Shown: positions 4,243-8,901 of the stretch, in pieces
Numbering within the stretch: the stretch's first letter is position 1
How the letters are laid out: each line of letters opens with the position of its first letter
NCBI GenBank assembly: GCA_035710745.1
Contig: DASTCX010000033.1
Coordinates: 1 to 34,848, forward strand
Reading direction: 5' to 3'
Length of the DNA stretch: 34,848 nt
Origin: Candidatus Eremiobacteraceae bacterium
GTDB lineage: Bacteria > Vulcanimicrobiota > Vulcanimicrobiia > Eremiobacterales > Eremiobacteraceae
The notes under the pieces: model-generated
What the model was told of the DNA's origin: nothing
The model's database searches: none
The model's input: the letters and a program-made list of their open reading frames with translations, nothing else
Position numbers and translations under genes: made by a program

Positions 4243-4707
4243 TCACGCGCGACGCCGCCAAAACGCCTTCCATCGCTCGACGAGTTTGCCCGTGCGCGAA
4301 TCGAGCGAAGCGGCGAGTCGCAGCTCGCGCACGCTCTCTCCGATCTTGCCTTCGCGCCGCAAGACGACGCCGAGATTGTGGTGCGCCATCGCTGACGATG
4401 GGTCGATGCGCAGCGCCGCCTCGTATTTCGCCCGCGCTTCTTCGAGCATGTTCGCTTCCTGCGCCAGATTGCCGAGGTTGACGAGCGCCGGCGCGCAACG
4501 CGGGTCGCGCTCGAGCGCTCCTGCGAAGTCGTGCGCGGCGCCCGTTCGATCGCCCATACGGACCTTGCACACACCGCGTTTCGAAAGCGCGAGCGCCGCC
4601 CGGTCGTCGGCTTCGACCGCTTCGGTGAAGAGGGCGACGGCGCTCGCGAACGCGTTCTTTTCGAATGCGGCAAGTCCGCGCTCGTAAGGCGAAGAACCGT
4701 GCTCCAT
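4243..4707 (-). CDS. Tetratricopeptide-repeat protein
   Basis: The 154-aa protein consists of about four TPR units: YERGLAAFEKNAFASAVALF, ALALSKRGVCKVRMGDRTGA, APALVNLGNLAQEANMLEEA and AMAHHNLGVVLRREGKIGES, each ending in a small residue and acidic pair. It would be a cytosolic protein-interaction scaffold; no partner can be named. The likely ATG at 4707 shares the palindrome CATG with the trmD start, so the two genes begin head to head with two bases in common. Two further ATGs upstream (4719 and 4713) would run deeper into trmD. No clear ribosome binding site is visible. Confidence 0.8.
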   Translation of the reverse strand: MEHGSSPYERGLAAFEKNAFASAVALFTEAVEADDRAALALSKRGVCKVRMGDRTGAAHDFAGALERDPRCAPALVNLGNLAQEANMLEEARAKYEAALRIDPSSAMAHHNLGVVLRREGKIGESVRELRLAASLDSRTGKLVERWKAFWRRRA

Positions 4708-5389
4708 GCGCATCGACATCGTCACGTTGTTCCCCGAATTCCTGCGCCCCGTGGTCGAGGGCAGCATTCTCGGCCGCGCGCGGTCGAAGGGGTTGGCGCA
4801 AATCGAGCTGCACGATCTATGGAAGTTCGTGCCGGCCGGTGAGCGAGCCGACGACGCACCGTATGGCGGCGGCGCCGGTATGGTGATGCGGCTTGGTCCG
4901 ATCGTCGATTGTCTCGAGCATCTGCTCGGCGGCGACCTTAAAGTCCCCGCAGGGCATAAGCTGATCGTACCATCGCCCGCGGGCCGGCGCTTCGATCACT
5001 CCGTGGCCCTGGAGCTGTCGCAGCTCGAGCGGATTATCGTCCTTTGCGGCCGATACGAGGGCATCGACGACCGTCTGTTCGACCTCGTCGAGGCAGAAGA
5101 GATCTCCCTCGGCGATTTCGTCATCACGGGCGGCGAGATCGCGGCGCTCGCTTTCGTCGACGCATGCGTGCGCCTGCTGCCGGGAGCGATCGCGCCGGAA
5201 AGCGCTCGAGATGATTCGTTCACTGACGGCGAGCTGGATTGGCCGCACTATACGCGACCAGCGGTCTTTCGCGGACTGGCCGTGCCTGATGTGCTTCTCA
5301 CGGGAGATCACGCACGCATAGAGGCGTGGCGGCGCTCAGAAGCATCTGCACGAACCACTCGCCGCCGCCCCGACCTAAAACGGCCGTAA
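4706..5389 (+). CDS. trmD: tRNA (guanine-37-N1)-methyltransferase
   Basis: TrmD (227 aa) methylates N1 of G37 in tRNAs reading CUN, CCN and CGG, preventing +1 frameshifting. It is a SPOUT enzyme: the N-terminus MRIDIVTLFPEFLRPVVEGS and YGGGAGMVM are standard, the trefoil knot contains LCGRYEGID (113-121) and EISLGDFVITGGE (132-144), and DDSFTDGELDWPHYTRP carries the catalytic Asp (near 170). Length is normal; the Arg-rich tail is short. trmD is usually followed directly by rplS; here about 1 kb of unusual DNA separates them. Its ATG overlaps the start codon of the divergent TPR gene. Confidence 0.97.
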   Translation: MRIDIVTLFPEFLRPVVEGSILGRARSKGLAQIELHDLWKFVPAGERADDAPYGGGAGMVMRLGPIVDCLEHLLGGDLKVPAGHKLIVPSPAGRRFDHSVALELSQLERIIVLCGRYEGIDDRLFDLVEAEEISLGDFVITGGEIAALAFVDACVRLLPGAIAPESARDDSFTDGELDWPHYTRPAVFRGLAVPDVLLTGDHARIEAWRRSEASARTTRRRPDLKRP

Positions 5390-5768: not shown

Positions 5769-5963
5769 ATGACGATCTGCATACTCACGTCGACCCCAAA
5801 GAGGTCCAGTTATTGTACTGGCTCGAGTGTAGAACAAGCTCGACATCAGCTCTGGTTGGAACTTGGCGCGACTGTCTTGGCCGGTGTAGCGGTCGGCCTC
5901 TGGACGAAGAAAATTACCCCGTCCCGCATTGAAAGTCGACCACAGTGGGAAGCCGAATCGTAA
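5769..5963 (+). pseudogene. Membrane-protein remnant or small ORF
   Basis: Only the C-terminal half of this 64-aa frame looks coding: LELGATVLAGVAVGLWTKKI is a good membrane helix with a basic cytoplasmic end. The N-terminal part has poor composition and no ribosome binding site. The frame runs through the first direct repeat. It may be a decayed or frameshifted relative of the small membrane ORF that follows. Confidence 0.3.
5920..5943 (+). repeat. Direct repeat, copy 1 (cassette boundary)
   Basis: CGTCCCGCATTGAAA followed by GTCGACCAC. It matches copy 2 (6210-6233) at 22 of 24 bases. A TGA inside it ends an upstream reading frame with the residues VPH. The sequence resembles the repeated terminal motifs I associate with IS21-type elements, but no transposase is present. 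Confidence 0.6.
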
Positions 5964-5967
5964 CGCC

Positions 5968-6222
5968 GTGGGCAAACGCGGTTGGACCATCAGGCTGTCC
6001 GTTCTCGGCGCTGCGATCATTTGCGCGGTTGTATCCGTCCGCAGCTTCCGCGAAGAACCGGGAAAAACGATCTACGAGACTCCCGGCTACCACGGCGGCG
6101 GCGATTATTTTTGGTTTTGGCCAACCTGGGGCATCGTTCTCATGGGCGTTGCGATTGTGCTATTTCTCGGAGCGGTCTCGATCTGGCCGAGGCGACGAAA
6201 GACCACAATCGTCCCGCATTGA
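5968..6222 (+). CDS. Small two-helix membrane protein, unknown
   Basis: This 84-aa protein (GTG start, 5968) has a basic N-terminus (GKRGWTIR), a first helix (LSVLGAAIICAVVSV), a 25-residue external loop rich in Gly and aromatic residues (YHGGGDYFWFWP), a second helix (WGIVLMGVAIVLFLGAVSIW) and a basic tail. The pattern is convincing for an inner-membrane protein, but I recognise no family. Its stop codon lies in direct-repeat copy 2, and copy 1 lies just before its start, so ORF and repeat together form a 290-nt cassette-like unit. A TTG at 5929 would extend it into copy 1. Confidence 0.5.
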   Translation: MGKRGWTIRLSVLGAAIICAVVSVRSFREEPGKTIYETPGYHGGGDYFWFWPTWGIVLMGVAIVLFLGAVSIWPRRRKTTIVPH

Positions 6223-6233
6223 AACTTGACCAC
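6210..6233 (+). repeat. Direct repeat, copy 2 (cassette boundary)
   Basis: CGTCCCGCATTGAAA followed by CTTGACCAC; 22 of 24 bases match copy 1, exactly 290 nt upstream. It contains the TGA that ends the small membrane protein, again with residues VPH. It lies 20 nt before the rplS -35 box. Confidence 0.6.
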
Positions 6234-6252
6234 TCCTTCCGGCGTCTGAACC

Positions 6253-6282
6253 TTGTCGGGCCATCCCGCGCTATGGTATACT
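6253..6282 (+). promoter_or_regulatory. Promoter of rplS, extended -10 type
   Basis: TTGTCG (6253-6258) and TATACT (6277-6282) are 18 bp apart, and TGG directly before TATACT makes an extended -10. Transcription would start near 6289, giving a leader of about 135 nt. Confidence 0.65.
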
Positions 6283-6306
6283 GTCTCTCGTTCAATCGGA
6301 TTACCG

Positions 6307-6387
6307 AGCGCCGGTAGACAGAGCCGGCTTTTCGAGGCGTCTGGCAGCGTCCGGCCTTCACGACGAATGCGTGACCGGCGCTTTTTT
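6307..6387 (+). promoter_or_regulatory. rplS leader with attenuator-like alternative hairpins
   Basis: A terminator-like hairpin (6347-6381) pairs GCG/CGC, CCGG/CCGG and TCACG/CGTGA and is followed by six T's (6382-6387), 37 bases before the rplS ATG. An upstream hairpin, GCCGG (6310-6314) with CCGGC (6324-6328), is followed by TTTT. AGCGCCGGT (6307-6315) is also perfectly complementary to ACCGGCGCT (6374-6382), so the two halves can pair with each other instead, which would dissolve the terminator. The pairings are seen in sequence; autoregulation by L19 or another signal is inferred. Confidence 0.6.
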
Positions 6388-6423
6388 AGCGGCCCTCGAC
6401 CACCTCTAAGGACGACGACGATC

Positions 6424-6771
6424 ATGGACCTGGCAACAATTCTCGGAGACGACCAGCGCAAGGCCCACCCCGCGGAGTTCTCCGTCGGCGATACGGTACG
6501 CGTCCACACACGCGTCACCGAAGGGAACAAAGAGCGCATCCAGCTGTTCGAGGGCGTGGTCATCGAGCGCAAGAACGGCGGCCTCTCCGCAAGCTTCACC
6601 GTGCGCCGAATAGCGCACAACGTCGGCGTTGAGCGTTCGTTCCTCGTCCACTCGCCGCGAGTCGACAAGATCGACGTCATCCGCCGCGGCGTCGTCCGCC
6701 GCGCGAAGCTCTTCTACTTGCAAGACCGTGTCGGCAGCAAAGCGACGCGCATCAAAGAGAACAAGAAATAA
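6424..6771 (+). CDS. rplS: 50S ribosomal protein L19
   Basis: L19 (115 aa) sits at the 30S-50S interface. Recognisable segments are [53 protein letters not shown] and the C-terminal [21 protein letters not shown]. The ATG at 6424 is preceded by AAGGA and fits the family start; the open frame runs upstream to 6253 but only through the structured leader. lepB follows 10 nt after the stop, the usual bacterial order. It has its own promoter because of the insertion that separates it from trmD. Confidence 0.97.
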
Positions 6772-6781
6772 CTCTCACTAG

Positions 6782-7477
6782 ATGAGCCCGTACGTCCTCG
6801 GCGCCGTCCTCGGCATCCTCGTCGTCGCCCGGATCATCATTTGGTTCGCCCCGGCGGCGGTGCCCGATGACAAACAGCGCGGGGTCGTGCGCGAGTATCT
6901 CGACGCGTTCATCATCGCCGGCGCGGTCGCGCTCGTCCTCATGCATTACGTCGTGCGGACCTTCTGGATCCCGAGCGGCTCGATGGAGCCGACCCTCGCC
7001 ATCAACGACGTGCTGTTGGCGAACGAGATCCAATACCGGTTCGGCTCCCCGCAGGACGGTCAGATCGCAGTCTTCAAGCCGCCGTCGCAGGTGCCCGAAC
7101 TCGGCGACACCGATTTCATCAAGCGCGTCATCGCGGGGCCGGGCGATACGCTGAAGATCCACGACGGCAGCGTCTATCGCGACGGCGTGAAGCTGTCTGA
7201 ACCGTACCTCAAACAAGCTCCCGATTATGAGCTATCGCTGCAGAACTACGATCTCGTGATCGACGGCATCCCGCTCGATCCGTCGCGTGCCGTCGTGCCG
7301 CCGAAGAGCGAGTGGCAAGCGCCCGATCGCGTGCCGAACGGCTACTACATCATGCTCGGCGACAACCGGAACAACTCCGACGACTCGCACCTCTGGGGAT
7401 TCTTGCAGCGCGACCAATTCGTCGGTCATGCGTTCTTCGTCTTCTGGCCGCTGACGCGCACGAGGCTTCTGCACTAG
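6782..7477 (+). CDS. lepB: Signal peptidase I, copy 1
   Basis: This 231-aa membrane serine protease removes signal peptides from exported proteins on the outer face of the inner membrane. Two N-terminal helices (residues 3-22 and 44-58) are followed by SGSMEPTL with nucleophile Ser67, DFIKRVIAGPGDTL with general base Lys114, and box E GDNRNNSDDSHLWG (193-206). All catalytic elements are intact. It lies 10 nt after rplS and is the first of three consecutive family members. Copy 2 is about 80% identical and aligns without gaps. Confidence 0.94.
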   Translation: MSPYVLGAVLGILVVARIIIWFAPAAVPDDKQRGVVREYLDAFIIAGAVALVLMHYVVRTFWIPSGSMEPTLAINDVLLANEIQYRFGSPQDGQIAVFKPPSQVPELGDTDFIKRVIAGPGDTLKIHDGSVYRDGVKLSEPYLKQAPDYELSLQNYDLVIDGIPLDPSRAVVPPKSEWQAPDRVPNGYYIMLGDNRNNSDDSHLWGFLQRDQFVGHAFFVFWPLTRTRLLH

Positions 7478-7509
7478 GACCACAGCCGCGCGTCGCCCAA
7501 GCCTCACAC

Positions 7510-8205
7510 GTGAATCCATACGTCCTCGGCGTCATCCTCGCGCTCCTCGTGATCGCGCGCGTCGTCATCTGGCTCGCCCCGCAAGTCCTATCGAGTGACG
7601 CACAGCGCGGCGTCGTGCGCGAATACCTCGACGCGTTTATCATCGCCGGTGTCGTCGCGCTCGTTCTCATGCGATTCGTCGTCCGGACGTTTTGGATTCC
7701 GAGCGGGTCGATGGAACCGACGCTCGCGATCAACGACGTCCTGCTGGCCAATGAGATCCAATACAGCGTCGGCTCACCCCAGGACGGCCAGATCGCCGTC
7801 TTCAAGCCGCCGCCGCAAGTCCCCGAACTCGGCACGACCGACCTCATCAAGCGCGTGGTCGCAGGCCCTGGCGACACGCTGCGCATCCACGATGGCGTCG
7901 TCTATCGCAACGGCAAAGCCCTGAAAGAGCCGTATCTCAAGCAGGCGCCCGATTACGAGCTGGCGCTGGCGGATTACGATCTCGTCGTCGATGGGATTCC
8001 CCTCGATCCGTCGCGCGCCGTCGTTCCTCCGAAAAACGCGTGGCAGGCGCCGGATCGCGTGCCGAACGGCTACTACATCATGCTCGGCGACAATCGCAAC
8101 GACTCCGACGATTCGCACCTTTGGGGATTCTTGCAGCGCGATCAGTTCATCGGGCACGCGTTCTTCGTCTTCTGGCCGCTCGCGCGCATCGAACCGTTGC
8201 GCTAG
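7510..8205 (+). CDS. lepB: Signal peptidase I, copy 2
   Basis: This gene encodes a second signal peptidase I of the same length (231 aa) as copy 1. Ser67, Lys114 and the GDNRNDSDDSHLWG box are all kept. By eye about 43 positions differ, clustered in the first membrane helix and its loop (2-31), residues 130-139 and the last seven residues, while the catalytic core is nearly identical. The start is GTG at 7510, 32 nt after copy 1; the open frame extends back to 7312 inside copy 1 only as a shadow. It arose by tandem duplication, and differences near the membrane region could tune substrate choice. Confidence 0.93.
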   Translation: MNPYVLGVILALLVIARVVIWLAPQVLSSDAQRGVVREYLDAFIIAGVVALVLMRFVVRTFWIPSGSMEPTLAINDVLLANEIQYSVGSPQDGQIAVFKPPPQVPELGTTDLIKRVVAGPGDTLRIHDGVVYRNGKALKEPYLKQAPDYELALADYDLVVDGIPLDPSRAVVPPKNAWQAPDRVPNGYYIMLGDNRNDSDDSHLWGFLQRDQFIGHAFFVFWPLARIEPLR

Positions 8206-8250
8206 CCCGCGACGAGGAGCGCGAGCGCGTCGCGCCCAAGACATAACTCC

Positions 8251-8901
8251 GTGCTTCCGCAGCCCCTCGATCCGGCACAACCGGACGAGCCGCACGACGC
8301 GCGGTCCTTCGTGCTCGACGATCTCGATCGCCGGGCTTCCACTATCAGAGCGCTCCGCCATGCGGGCGCTCTCTTCGTGCAAGTGCTCGTGCTTGCGTCG
8401 CTCGTATCACTTTTTTTCCTTCGTGTTCCGCAGGTCGACGGCTACTCGATGCTGCCGCAAGTCGACGCCGGCGATCACGTCCTCATCAACACGCTTTCGT
8501 ACGATTTGCGGATCCAGCGGCCCGGCGCTGAGGGTCAGGCGCTGCTCGACCTAGCGCTTCATCCTATCGAGCGAGGCGACGTCATCGCGTTCGTCCACGG
8601 CACCGGCGACGACAGCCGCATCTATCTCAAGCGCGTGATCGGCCTGCCGGGCGAGACCGTCTCGATCGAGCGTGGTGTCGTATCGATCGACGGATCGATC
8701 GTCGCGCCCGACTACGAAGCCAGCCGCGATGCCGCCGATATGGCGCCGCTCAACGTGCCTGCCGGAACGTACTTCGTCCTCGGCGACAATCGCGGCGATT
8801 CGGACGATTCGCGCGCGTTCGGACCGGTTCCAACCGCCGCGATCATCGGTCGCGCGGCGCTCGTCATCTGGCCGCCGGCACGTGTCCGCGCGATCCGGTG
8901 A
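8251..8901 (+). CDS. Signal peptidase I-like protein, divergent copy 3
   Basis: This 216-aa S26-family protease has a hydrophilic N-terminus of about 35 residues, one membrane helix (36-57), GYSMLPQVDAGD with Ser66, IYLKRVIGLPGE with Lys127, and GDNRGDSDDSR (178-188). The catalytic dyad is intact, but it is clearly more distant from copies 1 and 2, has one membrane helix instead of two and an inserted segment (PGAEGQALLDLALHP) after the first box. The start is GTG at 8251 with no clear ribosome binding site. Its end overlaps rbgA by 20 nt. A specialised substrate set is plausible but unproven. Confidence 0.88.
   Translation: MLPQPLDPAQPDEPHDARSFVLDDLDRRASTIRALRHAGALFVQVLVLASLVSLFFLRVPQVDGYSMLPQVDAGDHVLINTLSYDLRIQRPGAEGQALLDLALHPIERGDVIAFVHGTGDDSRIYLKRVIGLPGETVSIERGVVSIDGSIVAPDYEASRDAADMAPLNVPAGTYFVLGDNRGDSDDSRAFGPVPTAAIIGRAALVIWPPARVRAIR

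Follow-up and report, generated by a model that had tools for sequence, protein, structure and literature searches.

A conserved attenuator-like leader upstream of the ribosomal protein gene rplS in one family of Eremiobacterota

The gene encoding ribosomal protein L19 (rplS) in the DNA stretch analysed here (34,848 nucleotides, hereafter the window) is preceded by a short structured element, which is with high confidence a conserved regulatory leader. We propose a cis-regulatory, attenuating rplS leader that is private to one Eremiobacterota family and most likely senses L19, a proposal to which we attach about even confidence. As read from the nucleotide sequences, the leader combines a dedicated promoter-like site, a downstream hairpin with a U-run, conservation that continues past the U-run, and restriction to rplS.

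The window originates from an uncultured Eremiobacterota genome of 2.97 Mb in 41 contigs (G000). In gene order, trmD (4706-5389) is followed by a spacer of ca. 1 kb, by rplS, and then by signal-peptidase-like genes. The trmD gene has the same orientation as rplS, and no ribosomal-protein gene other than rplS lies directly downstream of the leader. The leader and its surroundings include the following features.

6253..6282, + strand: rplS promoter, with a -35-like TTGTCG (6253-6258), an 18-nt spacer and an extended -10 TGGTATACT (6274-6282); predicted start near 6289 (from sequence)
6310..6328, + strand: upstream hairpin, GCCGGU-N7-GCCGGC and then UUUU; only genera g1 and g3 have a comparable one
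6408..6412, + strand: likely Shine-Dalgarno sequence AAGGA, 11 nt before the ATG and outside the folded element (read from sequence)
6424..6771, + strand: rplS, ribosomal protein L19, 115 aa (ORF; Pfam PF01245, E 1.3e-42)

The family comparison comprised 13 genomes with rplS, representing 8 genera of a single family, where the genus of the window consisted of G000 and its sister species G001 only. The L19 of G001 is 96% identical to that of G000, and loci L002 and L031 (the G001 locus and another record) carried the same rplS leader. In the family member G008, rplS was not detectable. The distance between trmD and rplS was much shorter in several relatives. Within the spacer of the window, CGTCCCGCATTGAAA...GACCAC was repeated (5920-5945 and 6210-6235), perhaps left over from a repeat or mobile element.

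The initial annotation of this DNA had described a good extended -10 promoter upstream of the gene, which was recovered as TGGTATACT with TTGTCG 18 nt upstream of it, and the -10 hexamer TATACT was invariant in all 13 family leaders. This conservation bears on the explanation that the hairpin described below arose by chance, or terminates upstream trmD transcription without any role for rplS. Such a terminator would be in keeping with trmD being located upstream in the same orientation; however, a conserved promoter lies between trmD and the hairpin in 13/13 genomes, which places the hairpin within the rplS transcript and makes this explanation very improbable. No conserved leader peptide was visible by eye in the family leaders, the ATGs of the G011 and G004 leaders being absent from the others.

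The terminator-like part of the element consists of two features.

6346..6382, + strand: P2, terminator-like hairpin AGCG-U-CCGG...CCGG-CGCU with a variable upper stem (by folding; the bases of the stem hardly vary within the family)
6382..6387, + strand: U6 tract, where termination or pausing is expected (13/13 relatives with T5-6)

In its textbook form, an intrinsic terminator is a hairpin ending in GC with T5-6 immediately after it. The corresponding layout, a GC-rich hairpin with a T-tract directly after it inside the transcript, was found in all 13 leaders at the same relative place between the promoter and the rplS start, the T-run being separated from the start codon by 23-36 nt in 12 genomes and by 65 nt in G006. 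In the window, the last T is 36 nt from the rplS ATG (6424); the hairpin and six T's reported in the initial annotation are thereby retained, and the 37 nt given there for the distance is corrected.

The hairpin has a folding energy of -17.5 kcal/mol and is by itself unexceptional (z -1.3 vs shuffles of the 51-nt piece), and with -17.3 in a random-site comparison it ranked in about the strongest tenth of hairpins preceding random GC dinucleotides. The T6 is the uncommon part: T-runs of six or longer numbered six on both strands of the window, which has a GC percentage of 65, and the GC-T6 tract is rare in the genome as a whole. It is the family comparison that confirms the hairpin and its six T's as a real feature of the leader sequence, beyond chance. 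The U-run is probably a pause or termination site.

Conservation was concentrated in the element. The invariant columns of the leader alignment were all in the -10 or the element. Between genera, the 5′ arm was on average 63% identical, and the stretch comprising the 3′ arm, the U-run and the heptamer after it 83%, as compared with 42% for the hairpin loop region, 35% for the upstream and 38% for the downstream sequence. Within the family, the stem sequence GCGGCGUC...CGGCGC was nearly invariant; in G006 the hairpin and U6 were present and the conserved 5′ arm was absent. The hairpin sequence is thus conserved well beyond the needs of a terminator.

A fixed or globally tuned attenuator would terminate a constant share of transcripts, or respond to NusA, NusG or growth rate, and would set the rplS level without sensing L19. 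Such an attenuator agrees with the hairpin and U-run being the best conserved parts of the leader, and with the lack of a conserved competing upstream segment for a classical two-state switch. A plain terminator, however, needs stem pairing only, yet here the stem is nearly fixed in sequence, and conservation extends past the stop point; we regard a fixed attenuator as rather unlikely. The same excess of stem conservation, together with rplS being the sole ribosomal-protein gene directly behind the element, makes L19 the most likely ligand, for which we see the chances as roughly balanced.

The conserved sequence past the U-run is predicted to belong to a second stem.

6343..6348, + strand: 5′ strand of the lower stem P1, family consensus GGCnGCG (alignment; covariance-model match 6343-6394)
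6388..6394, + strand: 3′ strand of P1, AGCGGCC, conserved and directly after the U-tract (alignment)
6332..6337, + strand: 5′ strand of an outer stem, UCGAGG, pairing with 6394-6399 around the terminator and U-run in the window genus (MFE fold)
6394..6399, + strand: 3′ strand of the outer stem, CCUCGA (MFE fold)

The consensus of the element is GGCnGCG-GCGUCG-(variable hairpin)-CGGCGC-UUUUUU-CGCGGCC, in which GCGUCG and CGGCGC pair as the terminator stem P2, and GGCnGCG and CGCGGCC as P1, closing around the U-run. Automatic RNAalifold on the element returned P2 only; P1 was named by hand and then tested. The MFE structure of the isolated element was one long hairpin, P1-(U5-6 bulge on the descending strand)-P2, in 10 of the 12 full-element genomes. 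In the remaining two, i.e. the window genus, only a few pairs are left of P1 proper and the closing stem is made of other bases: the U-run was closed by the outer stem once the flanks were included in folding (in G001 the 5′ strand is UUGAGG, with one U-G pair).

The proposed structure had 89-93% of its alignment cells paired, vs 26-65% for slid versions. The clearest compensations in P1 were found in G007 (ACUGCG with CGCAGU), and in the covariation count two P1 pairs had changed on both sides, a number often reached by shuffles, the stems hardly varying; the near-invariance of P2 is part of the reason why covariation did not exceed the shuffle control. Support for the predicted structure comes from conservation and shared folding rather than from covariation. 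With its 3′ strand downstream of the stop point, P1 is unable itself to decide termination, and as it is formed only after the U-run has been passed, it more probably acts in the full-length transcript, with a part in protein binding, translation or stability.

The element might accordingly be read as a protein-binding hairpin for translation or mRNA stability, with the U-run as a recognition bulge and no terminator at all, given that P1 encloses the U-run in the full-length transcript and has its 3′ strand downstream of any stop point. The genome-wide occurrence of GCTTTTTT (GC-T6) is also compatible with this: 33 sites in the 2.97-Mb genome vs 59 in the reversed control, by which canonical terminators may be uncommon in G000. 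Against it, a GC-ended hairpin with T5-6 directly after it has the textbook form of an intrinsic terminator, and the G000 genome contains several other perfect hairpin-T6 sites; we hold a hairpin without terminator function to be unlikely.

The initial annotation had named another partner for the hairpin, further upstream.

6307..6315, + strand: proposed antiterminator segment AGCGCCGGT, 9 nt complementary to 6374-6382 (real in G000, not conserved)

According to that annotation, 6307-6315 and 6374-6382 are complementary, in a fold mutually exclusive with the terminator; the segment would then act as an antiterminator. In G000, AGCGCCGGT is a perfect 9-nt complement of ACCGGCGCT, a length reached by 6/2000 dinucleotide shuffles, and the competing fold is nearly isoenergetic, at a cost of 1 kcal/mol (-36.0 forced vs -37.0 kcal/mol). 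The longest upstream complement, however, is down to 6 nt in the sister G001 (shuffle p 0.54), the other family genomes reach 3-6 nt, within the shuffle range, and eight genomes have only 13-27 nt from the predicted start to the hairpin region, too little upstream sequence for a comparable segment. A complementary segment beyond chance was found only in G000 among the 13 genomes, and no conserved mutually exclusive terminator and antiterminator was found. On the shuffles and the 13-genome comparison, the pairing of 6307-6315 with 6374-6382 was rejected as a conserved mechanism; a switch of this kind is highly improbable, and would be tenable only as an innovation of the one species. What is conserved as partner of the hairpin is instead the lower stem closing around the U-run.

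In the mechanism proposed for the L19-sensing leader, polymerase would start at the dedicated promoter near 6289 and soon meet the GC-rich hairpin and U6, at which part of the polymerases would pause or terminate. In read-through transcripts, the conserved sequence just past the U-run is predicted to pair with the one just before the hairpin, whereby the U-run would become a bulge on the descending strand of a long stem ending shortly before the Shine-Dalgarno sequence. Free L19 would bind the hairpin and cause more termination, perhaps also a translation block, and L19 would in this way limit its own synthesis. Of these steps, we infer the polymerase stop at the U-run, the identity of the ligand, and whether it raises or lowers expression. 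In the most complete version, an L19 sensor not described before, a single hairpin would have two jobs: the upper part would stop polymerase at the U-run, and in escaped transcripts the U-run would form the bulge of a longer, L19-binding stem upstream of the ribosome-binding site, with L19 acting on both termination and translation. This would be an independent invention of rplS control, in a class whose ribosomal-protein genes share GGUUGUC at the presumed transcript start. Taken as a whole, this version is put forward tentatively and is itself rather doubtful.

The element was specific to rplS. In 12/13 genomes (G006 being diverged), a covariance model returned a single strong match, invariably the one at rplS, other matches having E 0.01 or worse; the E-values of this family search include the training sequences. 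When the model was trained on eight sequences, none of them from the window genus, G000 had no match up to E 1 other than the window site, which was found at E 0.22 and was also the best match within the window; G005, likewise left out of the eight-sequence model, was found at E 0.002. Outside the family, no convincing match was obtained in 97 phylum loci or 75 Firmicutes loci. A weak match in G008 was discarded, as it was located among unrelated genes of the genome in which rplS was not detectable.

The loci of the window and its relatives returned no Rfam match at gathering thresholds, RF00556 (L19_leader) included, and only a spurious ALIL match at E up to 10. Eremiobacterota/WPS-2 are unmentioned in PMC7247131, and a literature search on Eremiobacterota with riboswitch did not name the leader either. 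A conserved, structured and gene-specific 5′ UTR RNA, as is general for ribosomal-protein leaders, was present in 12/13 genomes with the predicted structure shared. Leaders of this kind bind the ribosomal protein that they precede, often by mimicking its site on the rRNA. By these comparisons, the rplS leader is not covered by any Rfam family and represents one more ribosomal-protein leader, distinct from the known L19 leader in sequence and predicted fold. The initial suggestion of a separate, lineage-specific attenuator-like solution is supported by its occurrence in 8 genera, by the lack of an Rfam match and by a structure different from that of the Firmicutes L19 leader.

The Firmicutes L19 leader RF00556 and its counterpart in Flavobacteria, the latter reported as further homologs of the Firmicutes motif (PMC7247131), are likewise short structured leaders directly upstream of rplS with L19 as presumed ligand. 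RF00556 differs in being a 42-nt hairpin ACGAUGUUCCGCUGC...GCAAGAGCAUCUG without a U-tract (Listeria, L080:2910-2952). The leader of the Escherichia coli S10 operon, controlled by L4, is alike in having an attenuator hairpin shortly before the first gene of a ribosomal-protein transcript, and its U-run is part of the descending strand of a longer hairpin. It differs in gene, RNA sequence and phylum, and the elements to which L4 binds precede the attenuator hairpin. In the S10 leader, L4 controls both transcription and translation (PMC10931766), and the dual layout of the rplS leader would resemble it by analogy, with a different protein and RNA. Conditional intrinsic termination is also used by the L20 (RF00558) and L10(L12)4 leaders of Bacillus subtilis (PMC10931766); these form structures competing with the terminator, whereas no conserved antiterminator was found in the Eremiobacterota rplS leader. 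According to the same review, nothing is known about the control of the E. coli operon containing rplS (PMC10931766).

The rplS leader described here probably has an origin independent of the known L19 switches. If a phylum that has no standard model strains possesses a leader of its own, this would point to repeated invention of L19 feedback with unrelated RNAs. At about 50 nt, the motif is compact and can be taken directly into assays of binding and termination, and it could join RNA family libraries.

In the sister family f2, the rplS leaders have a GUUG start and a hairpin soon after, and the next 10 nt are U-rich. The T content after the hairpin was 44% vs a baseline of 19%, a contrast that is only indicative because the baseline includes GC-rich upstream DNA; clear T6-7 tracts were present in G088, G054, G040, G044 and G032 (L189, L127, L211, L214 and L208). 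The f2 leader seems attenuator-like, and simpler than that of the window's family, and its occurrence speaks in favour of the attenuating rplS leader proposed here.

The promoter -10 combined with GGTTGTC at the presumed transcript start produced 20 matches in 61 class genomes and none in the reversed control (G000:C38:47927-47947, i.e. L262; L259-L278 and L280), and all those with a readable downstream gene were before ribosomal-protein genes (rplS, rpmB, rpsB, rpsT). A looser pattern in five genomes returned seven matches, four of them at ribosomal-protein genes, and the rplS leaders of the window's family mostly have CGTT at nearly the same position. GGTTGTC is a putative class-wide start-site or discriminator signal of ribosomal-protein genes.

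The rpsB leaders of the sister family (L264, L265 and L272) had a hairpin near the start, then a UAUGG-containing segment and later a GGGAGCCAGAAAGG-like segment; they returned no Rfam match and are possibly S2 leaders. In G072 of the sister family (L021), two rplS copies were located ca. 1.2 kb apart (G072:C5:475639 and 476886), each with its own promoter and leader. In the window, rplS is followed by three consecutive signal-peptidase-like genes (6782-8901), of which the first (6782) and third (8251) were Peptidase_S26 by Pfam, and the middle one (frame 7312-8205) appeared by eye as approximately a copy of the first.
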